In this document: in pieces, positions 1 to 31,594 of the stretch
Numbering within the stretch: the stretch's first letter is position 1
Layout: each line of letters starts with the position of its first letter
The notes under the pieces: generated by a model
What the model saw: the letters and a program-made list of their open reading frames with translations, nothing else
Told to the model about the DNA's origin: nothing
Databases searched by the model: none
Position numbers and translations under genes: made by a program
Virus record (IMG/VR): IMGVR_UViG_3300042296_000092
Span: 1-31,594 of that record
Source of the DNA: a virus
Length of the DNA stretch: 31,594 nucleotides
Direction: 5' to 3' (one strand)

Positions 1-118
1 TGTTGTACTTTTGTACCTTTTTGTCATCATCAACCAGTTTGATGAATTCCTCATACATTGGCAATGCCTTTGCCTTTGTTCTTAATTCGTTTGAGTAACG
101 ATAATCTTTAATTTCCAT
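1..118 (-). CDS. 5' fragment of zinc-ribbon protein gene, cut by window edge
   Basis: The first 39 codons (starting MEIKDYRYSNEL) of the gene that is complete at 30315-30629, with identical sequence. The gene runs off the left end of the window. Its ATG (118-116) overlaps the stop of the upstream methyltransferase gene by 11 nt, which is the same junction used at the other copy by a different upstream gene. It is most likely the same gene seen a second time because the genome is circular, not a true duplicate. Confidence 0.85.
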   Translation of the reverse strand, partial: MEIKDYRYSNELRTKAKALPMYEEFIKLVDDDKKVQKYN

Positions 119-127
119 TTGTCATTT
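1..127. repeat. 127-nt direct repeat, left copy
   Basis: Identical base for base to 30512-30638; the first mismatch is at 128 versus 30639. It contains the start of the zinc-ribbon gene and the last codons of whatever gene lies upstream. The left edge coincides with the window end while the right copy is internal. This fits an assembly-graph node (127 is a common k-mer size) joining a circular genome to a divergent branch. A biological terminal repeat fits less well. Confidence 0.9.
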
Positions 128-971
128 TTATTGCTTTGAATATCTCATATGCCACTTGTGGCACAATTGCGTTTCCGTATGCTTTTAGTGATTCTTTTTT
201 CCACTTTGAAATGGTAATTCCGTCCAATTCGTTGGAAAACCCATCATCTCCGCTACAAATCGGGGGTTCAGTTGGGAAATGGATCCAGTCGTTTCCCTTG
301 CTCGTTTTGTCAACGAATCCTGATTTTCCAAGCCCGTCACCTTTTCCCCGCAATCCGATGCCATCGGTGTCGGCAACATTCCCATCGCTGCAAAATGTTC
401 CAAGTACATCGCCCGTGTTTCCCCTCCGTAAATCTCCTTGCGCTTCATCGTTTGTTCCTCGGTCACTTCCCTTGGACTTGAATTTGGAGTGGGCAATAAA
501 CCAACACCTTTCCCTTCTGTGCGGTGCGTTTTTACTTGCAGCACCAATAATAAACGGTTGAACTTCGTACCCTTCATTTTCCAAGTCAACGCACACCTGG
601 TTGAATACCAATCCGCCATCAATAGTCGTGATACCAAAGACATTTTCCGCAACGACATATTTGGGTTTAATTTCTTGTATTGCTCGAAGCATCTCGCCCC
701 ACAAGTAGCGTTCATCCTCCGTTCCTTTGCGTTGTCCCGCGTTGCTGAATGGTTGGCAAGGGAATCCACCCGTGAGAATATCAATTCTGTTTGCATATTT
801 TGTAAAATCCGTTTGTGTTATGTCGCCATAAGAATCGGCATTTGGGAAATGGTATTTCAATACTTTTTTACCGAATTCATTCCACTCACAATGGAAAACA
901 TTCTCCCATCCCATCCATTCGGATGCCAAGTCAAACCCACCAATTCCCGAAAATAAACTACCGTGCCTCAT
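108..971 (-). CDS. dcm: DNA cytosine-5 methyltransferase (Dcm type)
   Basis: Transfers a methyl group from S-adenosylmethionine to C5 of cytosine in DNA; in phages this usually protects the genome from host restriction. Numbered from the ATG at 971 (287 aa): motif I GSLFSGIGGFD at 4-14, motif IV GGFPCQPFS with catalytic Cys72, motif VI ENV at 109-111, motif VIII HRRER at 151-155, and motif X AYGNAIVPQ near the C-terminus. Residues about 165-230 are a glycine- and charge-rich, probably poorly constrained stretch in the target-recognition region. An ATG at 1001 would add 10 residues, but the promoter at 984-1015 lies over it and motif I starts right after the ATG at 971. The stop overlaps the zinc-ribbon gene by 11 nt. 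A second frame inside this gene also looks protein-like (185-643). Confidence 0.95.
   Translation of the reverse strand: MRHGSLFSGIGGFDLASEWMGWENVFHCEWNEFGKKVLKYHFPNADSYGDITQTDFTKYANRIDILTGGFPCQPFSNAGQRKGTEDERYLWGEMLRAIQEIKPKYVVAENVFGITTIDGGLVFNQVCVDLENEGYEVQPFIIGAASKNAPHRRERCWFIAHSKFKSKGSDRGTNDEAQGDLRRGNTGDVLGTFCSDGNVADTDGIGLRGKGDGLGKSGFVDKTSKGNDWIHFPTEPPICSGDDGFSNELDGITISKWKKESLKAYGNAIVPQVAYEIFKAIKMTNGN
185..643 (-). CDS. Overprinted reading frame in the methyltransferase gene (possible second protein)
   Basis: A second open frame on the same strand stays open from at least 796 to 185. From about 643 on, it resembles proteins I remember from phages next to or annotated as cytosine methyltransferases. 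Visible marks are WYSTRCALTWKMKGTKFNRL, two LLPTP/MLPTP motifs about 40 residues apart, and a C-terminal SQLNPRFVAEMMGFPTNWT element. In the DNA, the LTWK segment overlies the region after motif VI and LLPTP overlies the residues just after motif VIII. The start is uncertain; ATGs at 643 and 619 are possible. Function is unknown. The resemblance rests on memory, not a search, and long open shadow frames are common in this genome, so expression is unproven. Confidence 0.4.
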   Translation of the reverse strand: MSLVSRLLMADWYSTRCALTWKMKGTKFNRLLLVLQVKTHRTEGKGVGLLPTPNSSPREVTEEQTMKRKEIYGGETRAMYLEHFAAMGMLPTPMASDCGEKVTGLENQDSLTKRARETTGSISQLNPRFVAEMMGFPTNWTELPFQSGKKNH

Positions 972-983
972 TATTTGTCTTTG

Positions 984-1015
984 CAAATATACGAAACCCA
1001 CACGAAATAAACAAT
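984..1015 (-). promoter_or_regulatory. Host-type (Bacteroidota) promoter for the methyltransferase gene
   Basis: A -7 element TATATTTG (984-991, read on the minus strand) matches TAnnTTTG. ATTG lies 20 nt upstream (1012-1015), close to the -33 TTTG. The element ends 12 nt before the ATG at 971, giving a very short leader. It sits in and just after the terminase stop codon, so the methyltransferase, zinc-ribbon and DnaA-like genes can be expressed separately from the terminase. Confidence 0.6.
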
Positions 1016-1019
1016 TTAT

Positions 1020-2177
1020 TTATCTAATATCATATTGACCATAGTTCCCACGGATCCCAAGTGCCATCATTTCGTGATACCTCCAACTGTCAATTCCGTG
1101 GTCTGTACCCGTTGGTGTGTTCATTGTACGCCCTTGGGCATCCGTATCCCAACAATAGTTGCGCAGTTCTTTAATTAGGTTTGTGGATGTGGATGTAACC
1201 AAATACGATTGTGATTGCATGATTTGAATTCCGTAGTTGATGGAATCCTTTCCTTTGGTCACGCCCTTGATTCTGATGCCGTATCTGCGTATTTCATCAA
1301 TTGATTTTGGTTCTGCACTATCCGCATACACTGGCACAAAGTTGGGTAATGCCTTTGCAATGTCCGAATTAAGCATTCCCGTGCGATATGCGACCTCATC
1401 AACGATTCGTTGTCCATTGTATTCATATACGGCCACAATTGCCGTAGGGTCGTTTGTATAACCGAAATCCACCCCACAACCAAGCAACCTTGCATCTTCG
1501 GGAATCTTGTCTATGGTTTGCCAATTTGAAAAGATAACCCCTTGTAGGTTTCCAATCTCACCAAGCCCGAATACTTTCCACCAATTACGCCAATAGTTGC
1601 TTGTTTCTGCCCTATCCCGTGCCTTTTCAATTTCCGCCACAATGGATTTATCCAACGCTTCGTTGTCTTTGTAGGTAAGTACAATCATTTCCGCATCAGG
1701 GTCGTTTACCAATTCGCTATCTACCCAAAACTCCGCCACTGGGTTGTAATCCAAATAGATGAATTTACGGGTACGGATTGCCATTTGGTAGTACGATTCC
1801 CAATCTATGTTGTTGCACTCGTTTACAAATAGAACATCACGCCTTGCACCCCTCAACTTTTGGGGTTGATCCGCAGAAAAGAATTCAATGTAACTTTCGT
1901 TGCTGAACTTGTAGGTCCATGATGACTTGTTCCATTTTAACGGGTCAAACATCCCAACCATTTCCATGATTTTGAGGAAGTCACGGATAGCACCCCTCCG
2001 AAGGTGGGGGATGGTTTCCGATACCACACTTATTTCACACTTCGGATTTTGCACCGCGTATGTGATAAGCATTGGAATGATGGAGAAGGTTTTTGAACTG
2101 GATGTTCCACCCCTCACAATGCGAATCCGTTTACGGAGTTTCGCTATCTTGATTTGTGCGGTCGTTTGTTGCAACAT
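1020..2177 (-). CDS. terL: Terminase large subunit (packaging ATPase-nuclease)
   Basis: Pumps phage DNA into the prohead and cuts it. The 385-aa protein has a Walker A GGTSSSKT at residues 23-30 and a Walker B DVLFVNE at 114-120, with Asn before the catalytic Glu instead of the usual Asp. The nuclease acidic residues lie in GVDFG (D237), YADSAEP (D286) and HGIDSWRY (D363). Length is slightly short but both domains are complete. The start at 2177 overlaps the small-subunit gene by 47 nt, typical of translational coupling. No terminator follows; the methyltransferase promoter begins inside the stop region. Confidence 0.95.
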   Translation of the reverse strand: MLQQTTAQIKIAKLRKRIRIVRGGTSSSKTFSIIPMLITYAVQNPKCEISVVSETIPHLRRGAIRDFLKIMEMVGMFDPLKWNKSSWTYKFSNESYIEFFSADQPQKLRGARRDVLFVNECNNIDWESYYQMAIRTRKFIYLDYNPVAEFWVDSELVNDPDAEMIVLTYKDNEALDKSIVAEIEKARDRAETSNYWRNWWKVFGLGEIGNLQGVIFSNWQTIDKIPEDARLLGCGVDFGYTNDPTAIVAVYEYNGQRIVDEVAYRTGMLNSDIAKALPNFVPVYADSAEPKSIDEIRRYGIRIKGVTKGKDSINYGIQIMQSQSYLVTSTSTNLIKELRNYCWDTDAQGRTMNTPTGTDHGIDSWRYHEMMALGIRGNYGQYDIR

Positions 2178-2490
2178 CTAAATTGATTCCGTTAAAAATT
2201 GGCTTTTCCGTTGTAACATCAATTTGTTGGGTAGGCATACCAAATCCCGAATCCATCAATTGTTTGTATGCACCCACATCCCCCTTCCTTGCCTTGTGTA
2301 TCATTGCAAGGGTTATCAAATCTTCTTGGGATAATTTTTCTAATTCTCCCGTGATGGGGTTTTTGGTGTCTTGCATTACCTCCAACCATTTACGGGCTAT
2401 GGTACTTCGGTTCTTTGTACCTTTCGGTTTTCCGTTGGGGTTTCTTATCTCCCCAGGTTGTACGGGTTTCAAATAATCTTTATTTGCCAT
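2131..2490 (-). CDS. terS: Probable terminase small subunit (DNA recognition)
   Basis: A 119-aa protein directly upstream of and overlapping the terminase large subunit. The N-terminus carries PGEIRNPNGKPKGTKNRST, a GNPKG-x-PKGTKN type motif found at the start of DUF5681-like phage proteins that often sit in the small-terminase position. The rest is mostly helical and ends in a charged tail. The role as small terminase is inferred from position, size and this motif; no characterised DNA-binding fold can be seen directly. Two 11-bp repeats lie just upstream of its ATG. Confidence 0.65.
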   Translation of the reverse strand: MANKDYLKPVQPGEIRNPNGKPKGTKNRSTIARKWLEVMQDTKNPITGELEKLSQEDLITLAMIHKARKGDVGAYKQLMDSGFGMPTQQIDVTTEKPIFNGINLDVATNDRTNQDSETP

Positions 2491-2492
2491 AA

Positions 2493-2514
2493 TTACATAT
2501 CATTTACATATCAT
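2493..2514. repeat. Two tandem 11-bp repeats upstream of terS
   Basis: TTACATATCAT occurs twice without a gap (2493-2503 and 2504-2514), between the ATG of the presumed small-terminase gene and the end of the preceding gene. On the minus strand it reads ATGATATGTAA twice. Short direct repeats beside terminase genes can be packaging recognition sites or operators, but two copies could also be chance slippage in AT-rich sequence. Confidence 0.5.
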
Positions 2515-2693
2515 TCTTCGGGTGTCAATGGTATTGGCATCCAATACAAAACATTCAATCTTTGGTTGGTGTGGTAACAATGCCATTCACCATCAAAGTA
2601 CACGGCCACAAATGGCATCATTCGGTTTGCAATTGCCAATACGGGTATTTCCTCAACGGGTAAAATTCTTTGGGGGGTTCTCCATGCTTTCAT
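2511..2693 (-). CDS. DUF551-like small protein
   Basis: A 60-aa protein starting MKAWRTPQRILPVEEIPVLA. It has the pattern of DUF551 proteins common in phages: a tryptophan near the N-terminus, a proline/hydrophobic PV-A strand, a central YFDGEWHCY, and a C-terminal WMPIPLTPEE. Function is unknown for the family. The ATG at 2693 forms an ATGA overlap with the stop of the glycosyltransferase-like gene, which decides the start over an upstream in-frame ATG at 2807. It lies between that gene and the terminase genes. Confidence 0.7.
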   Translation of the reverse strand: MKAWRTPQRILPVEEIPVLAIANRMMPFVAVYFDGEWHCYHTNQRLNVLYWMPIPLTPEE

Positions 2694-3439
2694 ATTCCTT
2701 TTATTGGGATGTTTACTTTTTTTGCGTTTAACAAATCGGTCATTTTTCGTGGTGGTAACTGATACGAAATTATCTTTTTCCCCCATTTTAACATGATGCG
2801 TTTGCAATACTCGATTTCTTTATCCTTACTTCGATACGATACAATTCCCCCCTTGTTATCTCCATGTTCACATTCGTATGAAAATTTATTTAATCTTAAT
2901 ACTTTTTTGTATGTTCTTAGGTGTTGTAACGCCATATCGTAATCGTCTTTTGTACCCATTTGAATATCAAATGTCAAATCGTGTTCCAAATGCCCTTGGA
3001 ATGGGCCTAAAATAATTTTTGATAAGTTAAATGGGCTATATTGTTTGTATGCTAAGGGATCTGTATTTTGATTAATCCCCCACATTTTACAATTTAATTC
3101 TTTACACAAACCAAAAGAATTTTCAAAAAACTCATTCAATAATTTTTTTGACAATGTGTATTTAATTGGGATATTTTCTTTTGACTGAAAATAACAAATT
3201 TCTTTAACATCATCATCAATCATTATTAACGGTCTTGGAATGTTTTTCAATATCCAATTTCTTTTATTTACAATGTTTCCATCCTCATCGTCTGGTATTG
3301 TAATTACTCTATCAATCCCTAAAATTTCAATATACTCGTGTTTCTGGCTTTCGGGTACACAATACTTGGCCATAACAAAATAATCCTTTCCTTTAAGGTC
3401 GTGACTTCTTTTGTACGAAGGTATTATTACATTTATCAT
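2690..3439 (-). CDS. TAGT-like phage glycosyltransferase (putative DNA base modification)
   Basis: A 249-aa protein of glycosyltransferase type A look. It has N-terminal VIIPSYKR (residues 4-11), a conserved NKRNW (58-62) before the nucleotide-sugar site, an acidic MIDDDV (DDD 75-77) that would bind metal and the sugar nucleotide, and a later MGTKDDYDM. This arrangement resembles the TET-associated glycosyltransferases (TAGT) that glycosylate modified bases in phage DNA. No TET/JBP dioxygenase is visible in the window, so the acceptor is unknown and could be another modified base or a surface polymer. ATGA overlaps join it to the ParB-like gene before it and the DUF551-like gene after it. The gene is visibly more AT-rich than its neighbours, suggesting recent acquisition. 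Confidence 0.65.
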   Translation of the reverse strand: MINVIIPSYKRSHDLKGKDYFVMAKYCVPESQKHEYIEILGIDRVITIPDDEDGNIVNKRNWILKNIPRPLIMIDDDVKEICYFQSKENIPIKYTLSKKLLNEFFENSFGLCKELNCKMWGINQNTDPLAYKQYSPFNLSKIILGPFQGHLEHDLTFDIQMGTKDDYDMALQHLRTYKKVLRLNKFSYECEHGDNKGGIVSYRSKDKEIEYCKRIMLKWGKKIISYQLPPRKMTDLLNAKKVNIPIKGI

Positions 3440-4023
3440 ATAAAATTCTTACCGTTTATTACCCTACCAATCCCGATACTTTGACCTTTCATTTTCACAT
3501 GGTGTTTTGTCTTATTCAACCCATATAATTCTTGGGCTACCTCCCAATCCATGGCATTGTCAAAATACAAAACGATGTAATTGTGTTCCAACAACAATTC
3601 CTCACTAAATTGAACTTCGCCAACATCGGGTATGTCTTTGGTTTCTGTGATATCATCAATGTTTGGCACATCCAACCCCCATTGATTCAATTCCTCTGGG
3701 TTCCAATCGTTTGCCAATGCATCCCAATCCCATTCACCAAATCCAACATTGTCTTTTATCAAAAATTCCCGTTCTTGTTCCTCGGTGAGGTTTTCCGCTT
3801 TGATGATGGGGATTTCTTTCAATCCGATTTCTTGAATGGCCTTCAATCTCATGTTGCCACCCAACACCATCATTTCATTGTTTACCACAATGGGGCGTAT
3901 CTCCAACATTTCGGGAAAATCCTTAATTGATTGTACTAACTTCTTGAATTTGTCATCCTTCAAAATTCTGGGATTGTTTTCATTCGCATGAATGTCCGTT
4001 GTTTTTACCCATTCTATATTCAT
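3436..4023 (-). CDS. ParB-like (ParB/Srx fold) nuclease-domain protein
   Basis: A 195-aa protein whose N-terminal ~85 residues match the phage ParB-like domain: WVKTTDIHANENNPR, then IRPIVVNNEMMVLGGNMRLKA with the GGNxRxxA signature, then IPIIKAENLTEEQEREFLIKDN. A middle segment (GEWDWDALANDW) and a C-terminal domain ending in GIGRVINGKNFI follow. In phages such proteins occur beside DNA-modification genes and terminases, and have been proposed to act as nucleases or DNA-binding adaptors. The start at 4023 is set by an ATGA overlap with the HNH gene; an upstream in-frame ATG at 4110 lies inside that gene. Its own stop overlaps the glycosyltransferase-like ATG. Confidence 0.8.
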   Translation of the reverse strand: MNIEWVKTTDIHANENNPRILKDDKFKKLVQSIKDFPEMLEIRPIVVNNEMMVLGGNMRLKAIQEIGLKEIPIIKAENLTEEQEREFLIKDNVGFGEWDWDALANDWNPEELNQWGLDVPNIDDITETKDIPDVGEVQFSEELLLEHNYIVLYFDNAMDWEVAQELYGLNKTKHHVKMKGQSIGIGRVINGKNFI

Positions 4024-4271
4024 TTGTTCATTTTTATTTGGTGTACTGTGATTAGATATTCGTTTTTTAATTTTGTTCCAAAGTGAACTTCGTGGTGGCA
4101 ATCCCGACACAATCCCATAAGGTTTTCGATATTGTCTTTGCCCCCGCGTGACCTGGGGATAAGGTGGTGAACATCAATACATTGTTTCCCGCAGTTTGGC
4201 ACTTCACATGGAATCCAATCGGTTGTATCATACCCAAAGTGTTTCAAATAAATTTTTGTCCACGGCTTCAT
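4020..4271 (-). CDS. HNH endonuclease
   Basis: An 83-aa single-domain HNH protein. Four cysteines (CEVPNCGKQC and LCRDC) would bind structural zinc. The catalytic signature is VHHLIPRSRGGKDNIENLM followed by CRDCHHEVH. Small phage HNH proteins next to terminase genes help cut DNA at packaging in several phages (family knowledge). The position three genes upstream of the terminase fits, though a general nuclease role cannot be excluded. Its ATG lies 44 nt inside the preceding small gene. Confidence 0.9.
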   Translation of the reverse strand: MKPWTKIYLKHFGYDTTDWIPCEVPNCGKQCIDVHHLIPRSRGGKDNIENLMGLCRDCHHEVHFGTKLKNEYLITVHQIKMNK

Positions 4272-4416
4272 CTTCTATTGTCCTATTGTATAATGTTCTA
4301 CACCACGATCCACACATTTCCATAATTTCGCCAATTTGTTCCCATGTCTTACCCATGTCATCGCGTAAAATCATTATTGCGTACTGTTTAGCAAGGATTT
4401 GACGGCGTTTAACCAT
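4228..4416 (-). CDS. Small helix-turn-helix-like protein
   Basis: About 62 residues from the ATG at 4416 (MVKRRQILAKQYAIMIL). The centre, GKTWEQIGEIMEMCGSWCRTLYNR, looks like a sigma region 4/LuxR-type helix-turn-helix: xxTWEQIGxxM, then a recognition helix. Possible earlier starts at 4425 and 4464 would only lengthen the overlap with the preceding gene. The product is probably a small DNA-binding protein; no family is recognised. The long overlaps on both sides (43 and 44 nt) lower confidence a little. Confidence 0.5.
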   Translation of the reverse strand: MVKRRQILAKQYAIMILRDDMGKTWEQIGEIMEMCGSWCRTLYNRTIEDEAVDKNLFETLWV

Positions 4417-4571
4417 TCGCCCCATTTTGATCGGTCTTGAAATTGTATTCTGCATTTTGTACACATATAAATTTGGTTGGGTTCAATCATTGGCCCCGTT
4501 TCGTTGATTAATTCTTTGGTTGATTCTTTATTGTTATCGCAACAATCACAAAGGTTTCTCGTAAGTTTCAT
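4374..4571 (-). CDS. Small zinc-ribbon-like protein
   Basis: A 65-aa protein with paired cysteines CDCC near the N-terminus (NLCDCCDNN) and CTKC about 27 residues later (YMCTKCRIQF), consistent with one zinc site. A C-terminal amphipathic helix follows. It overlaps the preceding Cys-rich gene by 26 nt. Function unknown; small zinc-binding proteins are frequent among early phage genes as transcription or nuclease modulators. Confidence 0.55.
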   Translation of the reverse strand: MKLTRNLCDCCDNNKESTKELINETGPMIEPNQIYMCTKCRIQFQDRSKWGEWLNAVKSLLNSTQ

Positions 4572-9357: not shown

Positions 9358-9451
9358 TTGATTACCTCCATCGTTGGTTGTTTTGGATGAATCGGCTTGT
9401 AATGTTGATTACCTCCATCGTTGGTTGTTTTGGATGAATCGGCTTGTAATG
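9358..9451. repeat. Tandem duplication of 47 bp
   Basis: Bases 9358-9404 are repeated exactly at 9405-9451, and the match runs on for about 8 more bases. Because 47 is not a multiple of three, the coding frame of the gene at 9362-9796 changes inside the repeat. With a single copy that gene would end ...MEVIK with its TGA forming ATGA with the next gene's start, as at most junctions here. A recent slippage event or an assembly error are the two explanations. Confidence 0.9.
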
Positions 9452-9796
9452 TTGATTACATATGGCGATTGTAACTGGGTGTTCCATGTCAATATCCCAT
9501 TTTTGAATAATAAACTGAATGACATCCCTAATAACCACGCTTGGCTCTGGATCAGGATTGTTTTCCGCGATATTCATTAATGATATTAACAATTCTAATT
9601 CGCGTGTTAATTCATACGGGTTAACCCTTTTTTGATTAAATCCCGAATCGTATTGGGTTAGCGCATCAATTACGATTGTTGAAACTGGTTTGTTTTGTAA
9701 AAATGCAATTTGATGTAAATGTGCTTTTTGCCATTCCGTCATGCGTAAAGAAAATCTGCATGTTTTGTTTTTGTCCCAAGGTTTTTGATTTGTCAT
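9362..9796 (-). CDS. Ribbon-helix-helix-like DNA-binding protein with altered C-terminus
   Basis: A 144-aa protein. Residues 12-50 (TCRFSLRMTEWQKAHLHQIAFLQNKPVSTIVIDAL) have the ribbon-helix-helix pattern: an N-terminal strand RFSLRM, then two helices around a turn with a small residue. The middle is helical (ELTRELELLISLMNIAENN). The last 13 residues (ITSRFIQNNQRWR) are the second reading of the 47-bp repeat in another frame and are probably not native; without the duplication the protein would end around residue 131 plus a Lys. It is probably a transcriptional or mobilisation-type regulator. ATGA overlap with the gene before it. Confidence 0.6.
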   Translation of the reverse strand: MTNQKPWDKNKTCRFSLRMTEWQKAHLHQIAFLQNKPVSTIVIDALTQYDSGFNQKRVNPYELTRELELLISLMNIAENNPDPEPSVVIRDVIQFIIQKWDIDMEHPVTIAICNQHYKPIHPKQPTMEVINITSRFIQNNQRWR

Positions 9797-10197
9797 TTTA
9801 CCGCTTTTAACATTATAGTGTCCTCATTTTGAAGGTACTGGGCGGGTTCGTAAACTTCCCCCGTTTGTTCGTTCAAGAAAATACCCAGGTTCATTTGTTT
9901 GTAGGCGTGTTGGTGCAGTTTTTCGCGTTCCTTTAACTCTGCCCGCAATTCCATCACTTGTGGGATGTGGTCATAATTATACCGACCTCCACCCGCCTTG
10001 CGTGTGATTTCGTATCCTTGGTACACTTGTCCGTGCCATTTACCCGCTTCGGTCAATGCAAGGGGTTTTACTTGGTCCTGAAAGTTCTTGATGGTATCCG
10101 CCAATTCTTTCAATTCAATGTGGAATTGTAGGGGGCAGTAATTTCCACCCCCTACTTCCAACATCGTGTCCGATAGTTGCTCAATCATTTTTTTCAT
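9793..10197 (-). CDS. Phage recombination/replication-region protein, 134 aa
   Basis: An N-terminal helical part is followed by LALTEAGKWHGQVYQGYEITRKAGGGRYNYDHIPQVMELRAELKEREKLHQHAYKQM. This EA-K...GYE...GG-R-YDY-H-----L---LK-RE--- layout recalls a phage protein found near SSB and recombination genes whose function is not established. The C-terminal part mentions a beta strand pair (GIFLNEQTGEVYEPAQYL). ATGA overlaps on both sides place it in one translational unit with its neighbours. Confidence 0.6.
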   Translation of the reverse strand: MKKMIEQLSDTMLEVGGGNYCPLQFHIELKELADTIKNFQDQVKPLALTEAGKWHGQVYQGYEITRKAGGGRYNYDHIPQVMELRAELKEREKLHQHAYKQMNLGIFLNEQTGEVYEPAQYLQNEDTIMLKAVK

Positions 10198-10547
10198 ACA
10201 AACCTAAATTTAACGATGTTCTTGTTTGCATTTTGAACCCTTACCACTTCAATCAATCCCGCCTGGTCATACATACGGATCCAATTTCGCAGTTCGTGAA
10301 CATTGTACTTTTTGCAAAGATTCAATAGTTCATCATCGTATCTGTGAATCCATTGGTTTCCGTAAAACCTTTGCAAATCATCCATGAAATCCCGTGTTGA
10401 TTGGCGAACCCTCCAACCTCGGTTTTGTTTTGGTTTTTCATTTGGGAATAACTTGCCCAGGATTTCCATCGCCTTTTTCAAGGTTTCCAAATCACTCGGT
10501 GTGAATTGGTTGAATAATTGTTGTTGTGTCATATCGTTATTTGTCAT
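10194..10547 (-). CDS. Putative winged-helix-like protein, 117 aa
   Basis: No family recognised. Residues 70-117 (IHRYDDELLNLCKKYNVHELRNWIRMYDQAGLIEVVRVQNANKNIVKFRFV) read like helix-helix-strand-strand of a winged helix. The N-terminal part is Gln-rich and helical. The start MTNNDMTQQQLF uses the recurring ATGACAAAT context; a second ATG at residue 6 is also possible. ATGA overlap with the next gene. Confidence 0.6.
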   Translation of the reverse strand: MTNNDMTQQQLFNQFTPSDLETLKKAMEILGKLFPNEKPKQNRGWRVRQSTRDFMDDLQRFYGNQWIHRYDDELLNLCKKYNVHELRNWIRMYDQAGLIEVVRVQNANKNIVKFRFV

Positions 10548-29849: not shown

Positions 29850-29875
29850 ATAAAACGAAGAAATTCCCGAATGTT
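29850..29875 (-). promoter_or_regulatory. Late promoter of the tail operon (ECF type)
   Basis: AACATT (29870-29875), 12 nt, CGTTTTAT (29850-29857), ending 6 nt before the ATG at 29843. The upstream half overlaps the terminator-like hairpin behind the DnaA-like gene. It is one of five elements with identical spacing. Confidence 0.7.
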
Positions 29876-29884
29876 TACGGGAAT
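29863..29884 (-). terminator. Terminator-like hairpin at the end of the DnaA-like gene
   Basis: Transcript stem ATTCCCG/CGGGAAT (7 bp) with an 8-nt loop that contains the stop codon of the DnaA-like gene, followed by a U-rich but interrupted tail (TTCTTCGTTTT). A moderate terminator that would close the methyltransferase/zinc-ribbon/DnaA-like unit just ahead of the tail operon. Confidence 0.55.
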
Positions 29885-30318
29885 CTTTCGTGAAGGATTG
29901 TGTGAACCCTTGCATGGTATCTTTGGACTTCTTTGTCCGTCTGCAAAATATCTCCAAATTCACGCACTGATGAAATAATGGTGGAGTGATCCCGCCCACA
30001 GATTAGCCCAATTTCTTCAAAGGTCATTTCTAAACGCTTTCTGCAAATATGGTTAAACATGTGACGGGCATACAATGGCCTTCGTTTTCTTGACCTTGTT
30101 ATCACTGTGTCGGGTGTTAGGTCGTAAACCTCACAGATTGCCCGTAATACTTCACGCCATGGGGTTGGCTCTAAATTGATGTCGGTTTTGGGTTGGACGA
30201 TTTCGCGCTTCAACGCACGGACCAAATTGTCATAGTCCGATTTCTGTTCAATCATCTGCAACCGCATCCGCCTGATTTCTTGTTTGAGGTTATGCACCTC
30301 TTGATAATGGCTTGTCAT
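29875..30318 (-). CDS. Stand-alone DnaA domain IV-like DNA-binding protein
   Basis: A 147-aa protein: an N-terminal coiled coil (HNLKQEIRRMRLQMIEQKSDYDNLVRALKRE), a linker, then a DnaA C-terminal domain. That domain reads LRAICEVYDLTPDTVITRSRKRRPLYARHMFNHICRKRLEMTFEEIGLICGRDHSTIISSV, carrying the DnaA signature GRDHSTI and the basic loop. In cells this domain binds DnaA boxes. Without the AAA+ domain, it may recruit or compete with host DnaA at origins, or regulate genes. It overlaps the zinc-ribbon gene as ATGA. Confidence 0.85.
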   Translation of the reverse strand: MTSHYQEVHNLKQEIRRMRLQMIEQKSDYDNLVRALKREIVQPKTDINLEPTPWREVLRAICEVYDLTPDTVITRSRKRRPLYARHMFNHICRKRLEMTFEEIGLICGRDHSTIISSVREFGDILQTDKEVQRYHARVHTILHERFP

Positions 30319-30629
30319 TTGTAGTTTATTTTACATAAAAAGCACCGATAATTTCCCTTGGATTTGCTGAATGTCACTTTTGCAAGTCGGTTACATTTGG
30401 GGCATCTTGGATGGTCAATAATTACAATTGAATCATACACCGATTGCCAATAGTCCTGACCTTGTGGGCTTGCATCCCATTTGAACGCATCCAATAACAT
30501 ATCTTGGATGGTGTTGTACTTTTGTACCTTTTTGTCATCATCAACCAGTTTGATGAATTCCTCATACATTGGCAATGCCTTTGCCTTTGTTCTTAATTCG
30601 TTTGAGTAACGATAATCTTTAATTTCCAT
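30315..30629 (-). CDS. Zinc-ribbon protein, 104 aa
   Basis: An N-terminal helical part (SNELRTKAKALPMYEEFIKLVDDDKKVQKY) is followed by a C-terminal zinc ribbon RCPKCNRLAKVTFSKSKGNYRCFLCKINYK (CPKC...CFLC). It could bind nucleic acid; function unknown. Its first 39 codons recur at the left edge of the window, because the repeat there begins inside this gene. Two different genes lie directly upstream in the two contexts. Confidence 0.85.
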   Translation of the reverse strand: MEIKDYRYSNELRTKAKALPMYEEFIKLVDDDKKVQKYNTIQDMLLDAFKWDASPQGQDYWQSVYDSIVIIDHPRCPKCNRLAKVTFSKSKGNYRCFLCKINYK

Positions 30630-30638
30630 TTGTCATTT
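30512..30638. repeat. 127-nt direct repeat, right copy
   Basis: Identical to 1-127. It spans the 5' third of the zinc-ribbon gene and the last six codons of the gene upstream. Immediately beyond it (30639 on) the sequence is unrelated to 128 onward, marking the point where the methyltransferase and ABC-GNAT contexts diverge. Confidence 0.9.
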
Positions 30639-30864
30639 CTGTTAATTGTTCTATGTTGATTTGATCCATGTAAATTGGAGTGTGTTCCCCAATATACGCA
30701 CACCATGTGTTGTGTTCCAGATATTCCACCGCGTCATCCCATTCCATCCCGTCATTGACCAGTATGTCAACCATTTTTTGTTTGCAGTAAATCATGCGTT
30801 CTTGCACCATGTCAATACCGATAATGGCTTCATCAAAGCCATCCGCCTTTATGTAATTTGTCAT
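30619..30864 (-). CDS. Conserved small phage protein, 81 aa
   Basis: Begins MTNYIKADGFDEAIIGIDMVQERMIYCK, continues DGMEWDDAVEYLEHNTWCAYIGEHTPIYMD, and ends with the MTNGN shared with the methyltransferase. The DAIIG(V/I)D...M-W-(D/E)AVEY--(H/Y)N---AY-GE-TPI pattern is widespread in phages with unknown function. The start at 30864 lies just after the stop of the ABC-GNAT gene. In-frame ATGs at 30909 and 30957 would lie inside that gene. It exists only in the branch carrying the ABC-GNAT gene. Confidence 0.75.
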   Translation of the reverse strand: MTNYIKADGFDEAIIGIDMVQERMIYCKQKMVDILVNDGMEWDDAVEYLEHNTWCAYIGEHTPIYMDQINIEQLTEMTNGN

Positions 30865-30865
30865 A

Positions 30866-31594
30866 TTAAAATAATGAAATTTGTCTTTGCGAATAATCTT
30901 TATACGCATCACTTGAAAAAGTGACAATTGATGTATCACATATCGATGATTCGCCAATGTATCTATATGATTTAGTAATCGCTAATTTTCTTTGTTGGCC
31001 TAATTTTTCATTTTCCAATTTAATTTTTTCTAAATCATTTCGTTCATCACACAAAAACCAATTTTCTTTGTTCCTCGACATTCCCATAAATAACGATGGA
31101 TTTGATGTTTTTATATACAATTTTTTGCCTATCGTTTTATATAGTGAACCAACATAATTCAATAATTTTATTCCAAATCCTAATCCTTGATAATCTGGTA
31201 ATACAACTAATCTACTAACACGAAATGCATTTTGCAATGTTCCACTTGGTAATGGCAAAATTGCAATAAACGCAGTTGGCTTATCATTCCAAGTCACGCA
31301 AAAACATTTTGCTGATTTGCTTAAATCTTGTGTCAAATAATGATGTTGTTTGAATATACGCCAAGTTTCATATCTACATCGAAATATCTGAAATTCAATT
31401 TTTGGTCTTGATTGCCGAAGATAGTCGTGTCTTTCGACACGCCCCTTCAATGGCGAATATGTCCAATCAGGCATCAACCATTCCATAATATCAAAATGAC
31501 ACGATGCAAGAATAATTTTTTTATTTTGTTTTCTAATAAATTTTTGCAACGCGTATGACATCGCTTTTGCAACATCCCTATCTACTACACTTGT
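30866..31594 (-). CDS. ABC-ATPase / GNAT acetyltransferase fusion, 5' end missing
   Basis: The frame is open to the window edge, so the gene is truncated. The first visible residues (TSVVDRDVAKA) lead into MSYALQKFIRKQNKKIILASCHFDIMEWLMPDW. This reads as the D-loop, last strand and H-loop (ASCH) end of an ABC ATPase. After a linker comes a GNAT fold: CFCVTWNDKPTAFIAILPLP, RVSRLVVLPDYQGLGFGIKLLNYVGSLY with the acetyl-CoA loop (QGLGFG), and KKLYIKTSNPSLFMGM. ABC-GNAT fusions occur in phages; the biochemical role is unestablished. GNAT-fold Mom of phage Mu modifies DNA bases, so a role in DNA modification is a hypothesis. The gene is notably AT-rich, like the TAGT gene. Confidence 0.75.
   Translation of the reverse strand, partial: TSVVDRDVAKAMSYALQKFIRKQNKKIILASCHFDIMEWLMPDWTYSPLKGRVERHDYLRQSRPKIEFQIFRCRYETWRIFKQHHYLTQDLSKSAKCFCVTWNDKPTAFIAILPLPSGTLQNAFRVSRLVVLPDYQGLGFGIKLLNYVGSLYKTIGKKLYIKTSNPSLFMGMSRNKENWFLCDERNDLEKIKLENEKLGQQRKLAITKSYRYIGESSICDTSIVTFSSDAYKDYSQRQISLF

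Follow-up and report, generated by a model that had tools for sequence, protein, structure and literature searches.

A phage locus probably present in two versions, with an exchange slot for DNA-modification cassettes and a C-terminal tail predicted to bind the host sliding clamp

The window (the whole 31,594-bp stretch of DNA analyzed here, an IMG/VR record classed as "linear", from a small phage in an environmental sample) carries phage backbone genes and two alternative cassettes. One of these (arm A) encodes a C5 cytosine methyltransferase and lies at the left end, and the other (arm B) encodes an ABC-GNAT fusion and a small protein and lies at the right end. The relevant features are as follows.

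1..127, no strand: first copy of a 127-nt repeat, at the contig start, covering the zinc-ribbon gene 5' end and a gene junction
108..971, minus: C5 cytosine methyltransferase alpha chain, the arm A cassette (PF00145, 4.7e-47)
185..796, minus: beta ORF of arm A, overlapping the alpha gene in a different frame (phrog_1008 "DNA methyltransferase", 1.4e-22)
972..1015, minus: promoter-like slot leader TTGTTTATTTCG...TATATTTGCAAAGACAAAT, conserved ahead of the slot genes and also in L010, the empty allele
1020..2177, minus: terminase large subunit, backbone, bordering the slot opposite the zinc-ribbon gene
29875..30318, minus: DnaA C-terminal-domain-like protein (PF08299, 6.1e-15), backbone
30315..30629, minus: small protein with a weak zinc-ribbon match (PF12760), backbone; the slot has its 3' junction at the start codon of this gene
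30512..30638, no strand: second copy of the 127-nt repeat, the branch point to arm B
30619..30864, minus: 81-aa small protein of arm B (phrog_13182, no known function)
30866..31594, minus: ABC-GNAT fusion of arm B, 3' 242 codons, cut by the contig end (GNAT, PF00583, 6.4e-6)
30869..30883, minus: codons for the C-terminal peptide QISLF of the arm B ABC-GNAT, clamp-binding-like

Bases 1-127 match bases 30512-30638 exactly, and the two paths split at the next base (128/30639); the initial annotation had described this repeat and divergence, and direct comparison confirmed both. A chance repeat was ruled out, as identity over 127 nt is beyond chance, and so was true terminal redundancy, because the sequences split right after the 127 nt. 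The only other direct repeat of at least 25 nt in the window is an exact tandem duplication of 47 nt (9358-9451), which forms the end of the gene at 9362-9796. Since the contig begins at base 1 of the repeat, the first copy has no left flank, and 956 nt come after the second copy. A k of 127 is a common largest value for de Bruijn assemblers and was presumably the value used for this contig, although papers searched for the assembler setting contained no statement of it. The window thus has the form of a branch in an assembly graph, i.e., an exact repeat of k length that starts at the contig end and diverges at the next base, and the length of the 127-mer together with its position at the first base of the contig points to such a branch rather than to a biological repeat. 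In a control for this reading, no 127-nt end repeats were found in the other loci, a result of little weight because these loci are mostly fragments. Comparison of the sequences gives good support to reading the window as one closed circle of 30,511 bp (1-30511) plus 956 bp of a second version (30639-31594). On the coding (minus) strand, the order in the circle is terminase, C5 methyltransferase, zinc-ribbon gene, and DnaA-like gene, and that on the second path is ABC-GNAT, 81-aa protein, and zinc-ribbon gene. The related contig L005 holds the flank, the 127-mer, the methyltransferase of the window (100% identity over 892 nt), and the terminase in a single piece. This contiguity favors a circle joined at 30511/1 and, with it, the earlier proposal of a circular genome of about 30.5 kb. 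A 44-mer from the end of arm B, used to look for its continuation, had 0 matches in IMG/VR.

The gene labels given in the initial annotation stood in outline and changed in detail. Read on the coding strand, both upstream genes indeed share one end, ...ATGACAAATGGAAATTAA, which overlaps the beginning of the zinc-ribbon gene; this last gene is present as described, with a weak domain match (E = 0.0092, under the family cut-off). The cytosine methyltransferase was borne out, but the gene proved to be two overlapping ones, the alpha chain and the alternative-frame beta ORF. The small protein after the ABC-GNAT was also found, but its start is most likely the ATG at 30864, overlapping the ABC-GNAT end. 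As for the ABC-GNAT itself, only the GNAT half is seen in the window; the ABC half lies off the contig and is present in full-length relatives 80-82% identical to arm B, which contain a Walker A motif, an LSNGEQ signature, and a Walker B motif followed by the GNAT domain and are thus ABC-type ATPases fused to a GNAT.

The alpha ORF is listed to position 1001 with a GTG start, and the ATG of MRHGSLF comes after the leader. PF00145 covers only residues 11-175 of the alpha chain, which has the N-terminal C5 methyltransferase motifs, including PCQ; the beta ORF, in the other frame, carries LNPRFVAEMMGFP, a stretch like motif IX, which we take to be that motif by eye. The beta ORF lies wholly inside the alpha gene, and the small chain of M.EcoHK31I is likewise nested in its large-chain gene. 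As described in parts of PMC3404938, motif IX of M.EcoHK31I is located on a separate small chain, and the window resembles that enzyme in having a large chain and a small chain with a motif-IX-like part. Relatives of the beta ORF are encoded at 156 IMG/VR loci, of which 80 were kept.

Passages of PMC7824862 (citing Iyer 2013) describe a GNAT-ABC ATPase system that is predicted to acyl-modify a base, with Tenacibaculum phage pT24 as an example; the arm B ABC-GNAT resembles the pT24 protein (54% identity over 179 residues) and, on this literature prediction, may modify a DNA base. A model of one full-length relative, built from a 31-sequence alignment (mean pLDDT, 79.6; pTM, 0.50), has structural matches in the PDB to ABC ATPases and to an N-acetyltransferase. 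Relatives of the 81-aa protein adjoin varied modification genes, namely, Mom (L125), C5-MTase (L234 and L236), and the MTase-like gene (L170 and L175). In the distant phages Pmp13, LE3, Jace, Javan420, P335, and EastWest (among loci L316, L317, L320, L322, L323, and L324), the gene directly upstream of the ABC-GNAT is ParB-like in several cases; it is annotated so in Pmp13, LE3, and Jace, and that of Javan420 is labelled a DNA modification methylase and looks ParB-like by eye.

A 67-mer from the repeat is present in 15 other contigs, and a scan with the zinc-ribbon protein yielded 24 loci, 9 of them on new contigs, giving a total of 24 contigs that share the backbone. The terminase lies on the far side of the slot in 23 of the 24 (L112 ends inside the methyltransferase), and the slot is thus located between the terminase and the zinc-ribbon gene wherever the far side is visible. 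Its contents are as follows.

C5-MTase: 6 contigs (L001, L003, L005, L007, L106, L112)
MTase-like protein of 209-210 aa (phrog_757 "DNA methyltransferase", 1.6e-66): 5 contigs (L004, L011, L014, L110, L111)
186-aa GNAT (GNAT186): 4 contigs (L002, L009, L015, L103)
ABC-GNAT: 3 contigs (L006, L008, L098)
Mom: 2 contigs (L012, L100)
Mom and GNAT186 in tandem: 1 contig (L013)
TAGT DNA-glycosyltransferase and a 116-aa protein: 2 contigs (L116, L117)
empty slot: 1 contig (L010)

In some contigs, the slot also contains another small gene or an HNH gene next to the main cassette. The Mom of L013 matches PF25680 (E = 1.4e-36; 126.5 bits versus a cut-off of 27.1), and the TAGT protein matches PF20691 (1.4e-45). 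Judged by such matches, all occupied kinds of slot except GNAT186 contain known or predicted DNA-modification enzymes. The locus therefore shows the marks of a moron-like exchange slot, with constant flanks, variable contents, and an empty allele. The claim that two modification-type cassettes occupy one site was supported by the three ABC-GNAT contigs, and the site has in fact at least seven occupied states and one empty state. The ABC-GNATs of these three contigs are 47% identical to that of arm B and adjoin the zinc-ribbon gene with the terminase behind, so that genes of the arm B type do occur here as an alternative. Each of the 24 related contigs has one zinc-ribbon gene and one slot, and 0 of the 24 carry both window cassettes, whose presence in tandem in one molecule the initial annotation had named as counterevidence; tandem arrays can exist, since L013 carries two other cassettes in this way. 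The 24-contig comparison thus supports well the mixed-population reading, as part of a larger exchange slot, and on these sequences the sample is well supported as holding at least two versions of one phage of about 30.5 kb that differ at one slot.

Variation was also observed elsewhere in these genomes. The relatives L002, L010, and L015 have about 1.1 kb extra at window positions 29857-29879, a third insertion point beside the DnaA-like gene. A second variable region (window positions ~2490-4571) lies upstream of the small terminase gene. In the window, this region contains genes for a TAGT glycosyltransferase and a ParB-like protein, and in relatives it contains other genes; its counterpart in L012 holds a tail-less ABC-GNAT.

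The two-version reading has to be weighed against two others. Arm B could derive from an unrelated phage that shares the 127 nt, so that the contig is an assembly chimera and the cassette of the window phage is single and fixed. The nearest DNA relatives of arm B among the loci compared (L016-L028; 81-83% identity) lend this idea some weight, as L016-L027 belong to a different lineage, in which the ABC-GNAT precedes a DnaA-like gene of 41-49% identity. However, the shared 127 nt belong to the zinc-ribbon gene of the present lineage, found in 24 contigs of the phage group, the last gene of arm B ends in the same junction, and in L006, L008, and L098 the slot of this same backbone is occupied by an ABC-GNAT; we therefore consider a chimera improbable. 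Alternatively, one genome might carry both cassettes and have its zinc-ribbon 5' end in duplicate. The tandem of Mom and GNAT186 in L013 offers a precedent for two cassettes in one genome, but the uniform presence of one zinc-ribbon gene and one slot, never with both window cassettes, and a repeat that begins exactly at the contig start make this arrangement very improbable.

The slot boundaries suggest how the two versions may have arisen. Genes that come first after the terminase are mostly preceded by one leader, TTGTTTATTTCGTGTGGGTTTCGTATATTTGCAAAGACAAAT, which in the empty allele is joined directly to the zinc-ribbon ATG. Bacteroidetes promoters follow the pattern TTTG-N19-21-TAnnTTTG, and the leader fits this pattern and is thus promoter-like. 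An extra gene next to the terminase in L006, L008, L012, L013, and L116 has its own different, TATATTTG-bearing leader, and in these contigs the common leader precedes the gene after it. The 3' boundary of the slot is TGACAAATGG at the zinc-ribbon start, the short repeat GACAAAT occurs at both cassette ends, the two cassettes of L013 meet at TTTTGACAAATAACAAATG, and some cassette ends share junction DNA (AAATTATTTTGACAAATGG). The simplest reading of these boundaries is that whole cassettes would swap by recombination through shared flanks, namely, the leader, the TGACAAATGG junction, and GACAAAT. An exchange of cassettes within the population appears highly probable and would let the phage population meet host restriction with a variety of modifications. 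Positions 30879-30895 of the window, in the codons for the QRQI tail of arm B, match TATTTGCAAAGACAAAT of the leader over 17 nt with one mismatch; this match may be due to chance or may be a trace of recombination.

The arm B ABC-GNAT ends in SQRQISLF, and that of the cultured Nonlabens phage P12024S likewise ends in QISLF. In bacteria, proteins that bind the beta clamp have a QL(S/D)LF peptide, in many cases at the C terminus, as reported in sections of PMC9690074 and PMC4549789. Among 83 ABC-GNAT ORFs, 71 have Qxx[LIM]F within the last 8 residues; of the remaining 12, 11 have the motif followed by a few residues, and only that of L012, which lies outside the slot, is without it. In 31 aligned ABC-GNATs, the sole invariant residues past L311 are Q389 and F393 of the tail, and residues 381-393 have a pLDDT of <50 in the one ABC-GNAT model. 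The 34 loci with Mom relatives include 32 complete proteins, and every one of these ends in Q[TIGAV]KL[FLI], 17 of them in F; one Mom ending is TTQTKLF. In the MTase-like family, 80 relatives were compared: the ending is Q[TG]KL[FL] in 11, QLELI in 10, and neither of these in 59, so that the tail is an add-on in this family. GNAT186 ends in ILQLF, which departs from the form of a clamp client, and the tail motif was found in 0 of 67 C5-MTase alpha chains. A Q-L-x-L-F-like peptide in a flexible terminal tail, as in known clients, was thus found for ABC-GNAT and Mom, with the pLDDT values coming from ABC-GNAT only.

The motif is concentrated in the slot families. A control set was made up of the window and 104 loci, 105 sequences in total. 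Here, the strict form of the motif, Q[LITVMAGN]x[LIM]F, was found in the last 15 residues of 89/106 slot-family proteins versus 6/988 others; 2 of 240 background clusters have it by majority, one of them a C5 methylase. A blind scan of the last 10 residues of 1914 distinct proteins from 311 loci found the motif in 8 of the 1673 proteins outside the slot families. By Pfam, these eight are three N6/N4 methyltransferases, one C5 methylase, one PAPS-reductase-domain protein, one winged-helix protein, and two proteins without a family; three of the four methyltransferases are new matches, as the C5 methylase had been seen in the 105-sequence control. The motif was present in 3 of 11 DPPY-type proteins versus 5 of 1662 others (Fisher p = 1.2e-5); a tail of the N6/N4 type reads QQIRMF. 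Of 80 relatives of one N6/N4 methyltransferase, 59 have the strict motif, 20 a looser one, and 1 none (79/80 keep it), and because the sequences are related to one another, these and the other tail counts do not represent independent events. The PAPS-reductase-domain protein at L124:2728-3510 ends in QLYLF, and its contig also has a Mom-like gene.

The tail was absent from the ABC-GNATs of the Bacteroidota phages pT24 and Porphyromonas 006a, in contrast to arm B and most of its relatives, which end in QISLF-like tails. It was also absent from the ABC-GNATs of Leptospira, Pasteurella, Lactococcus, Gordonia, Arthrobacter, and Pseudoalteromonas phages and of the T4-like Vibrio phage vB_VmeM-32. 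The slot Moms end in QTKLF or QIKLL, whereas six distant Moms from phages of Staphylococcus, Listeria (two), Bacillus, Acinetobacter, and Exiguobacterium end differently, without the tail. On the basis of these absences, the tail is frequent in one broad phage set rather than general.

Several N-terminal peptides of similar appearance were set apart. The beta ORF begins with MQTELIF, and the DNA for this N terminus also encodes, in the other frame, the PCQ region of the alpha chain. The clamp motif of the beta ORF (75/79 relatives, one of the 80 being cut) was not counted, as its conservation is not independent of that of the catalytic loop of alpha. The N terminus of the 116-aa glycosyltransferase partner (MKHSQLNLF) is suggestive, belongs to a single family, and was not counted either. 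A 117-aa protein (window positions 10194-10547) begins with MTNNDMTQQQLF, a clamp-like peptide.

A Pfam scan of 20 window proteins revealed a DnaB-type helicase and neither a polymerase nor a clamp, and the predicted partner of the tail is therefore the host clamp. By terminase, the nearest isolates are Flavobacterium psychrophilum phages (52%), and the nearest prophage-like relative is in a Flavobacteriales MAG (46%), which represents a relative and not the host. In this MAG, QVSLF occurs in the Pol III alpha subunit, and a UmuC-like polymerase carries QFTMF; a pentapeptide was looked for in its DinB-type protein and was absent. The ABC-GNAT of the T4-like Aeromonas phage PX29 ends in SGLDFMFGI. 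T4 gp33 and gp55 bind the T4 clamp, gp45, through a C-terminal LDFL, as outlined in portions of PMC9690074, and the PX29 end appears close to this peptide. The end of the PX29 polymerase (SLTDLFGDW) bears only a loose likeness to that of the ABC-GNAT, and an LDFxF DNA pattern occurs at three places in PX29, i.e., the ABC-GNAT itself and two unconvincing gene ends.

Taken at face value, the C-terminal tail would bind the host beta sliding clamp, and an enzyme so bound could be carried with the fork and mark phage DNA during synthesis, before restriction acts. We put clamp binding and replication-coupled marking at slightly better than an even chance. In its broader form, which we favor by a similarly narrow measure, this proposal holds that phages, chiefly of Bacteroidota, may have ABC-GNAT, Mom, and at least two kinds of methyltransferase tethered to the host clamp by an add-on C-terminal peptide, coupling self-marking to replication, and that a T4-like phage with its own replisome may use a tail of the T4-clamp type (LDFM), so that the tail would follow the clamp.

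A remaining alternative accepts the slot and disputes the meaning of the tail: Q-x-x-L-F might be a by-product of fold ends or of the recombination junction, with no clamp binding. KLF-stop overlaps the shared junction DNA in several alleles, so that recombination could carry KLF along, and the residues before the motif are also conserved in the ABC-GNAT family. Against this, the tails of arm B and most of its relatives do not lie at that junction, and the motif ends at least four unrelated enzyme families, including the blind-found N6/N4 methyltransferases outside the slot. The low pLDDT of the modelled ABC-GNAT tail, the motif-free ends of distant relatives, and the resemblance of the motif to QVSLF of the Flavobacteriales replicative polymerase likewise count against a by-product, which we regard as doubtful rather than improbable. 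For the reading as a whole, i.e., a phage in two versions with an exchange slot for modification cassettes and a tail predicted to bind the host clamp, we estimate a probability of about 0.72.

Marks on phage DNA need to be in place ahead of cleavage by host restriction, which raises the question of how phage modification enzymes find newly made phage DNA. A clamp-binding tail, if true, would be a simple answer and would explain the common ending of interchangeable enzymes. The tail can also serve as a sequence tag for finding unknown DNA-modification enzymes, given that four of the eight blind matches outside the slot families were DNA methyltransferases. The slot, in turn, points to an exchange of modification chemistry at the population level among members of a single phage species. 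Exchange slots and each of the enzyme families are already known; in the limited open literature searched, we found no report of clamp-binding motifs on phage DNA-modification enzymes, nor of a clamp-type tail shared by unrelated ones, which does not prove that none exists.

Phage morons and anti-restriction loci are exchanged at fixed sites. Like morons, the cassettes described here are autonomous, have their own leader, lie between backbone genes, and vary among close relatives; unlike morons, this slot holds mainly DNA-modification enzymes, whose folds are unrelated, and it has boundary repeats in common among its alleles as well as an empty state. The Mom family (PF25680; Pfam run on L013) is represented by slot alleles of L012, L013, and L100 and not in the window. 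Transposases with C-terminal beta-clamp motifs, for which binding has been shown according to parts of PMC4549789, have the same kind of peptide (Q-L-x-L-F), convergent at the C termini of mobile-element enzymes, whereas the peptide described here is on DNA-modification enzymes and its clamp binding is predicted only. The pairing of Dnmt1 with PCNA (in sections of PMC9690074) and of M.EcoGIX with PolI (in sections of PMC7736820) ties methylation of newly made DNA to the replication machinery, as proposed for the phage enzymes; unlike these, Dnmt1 has a eukaryotic clamp motif (PMC9690074), and M.EcoGIX is a plasmid methyltransferase tied to DNA polymerase I (PMC7736820).
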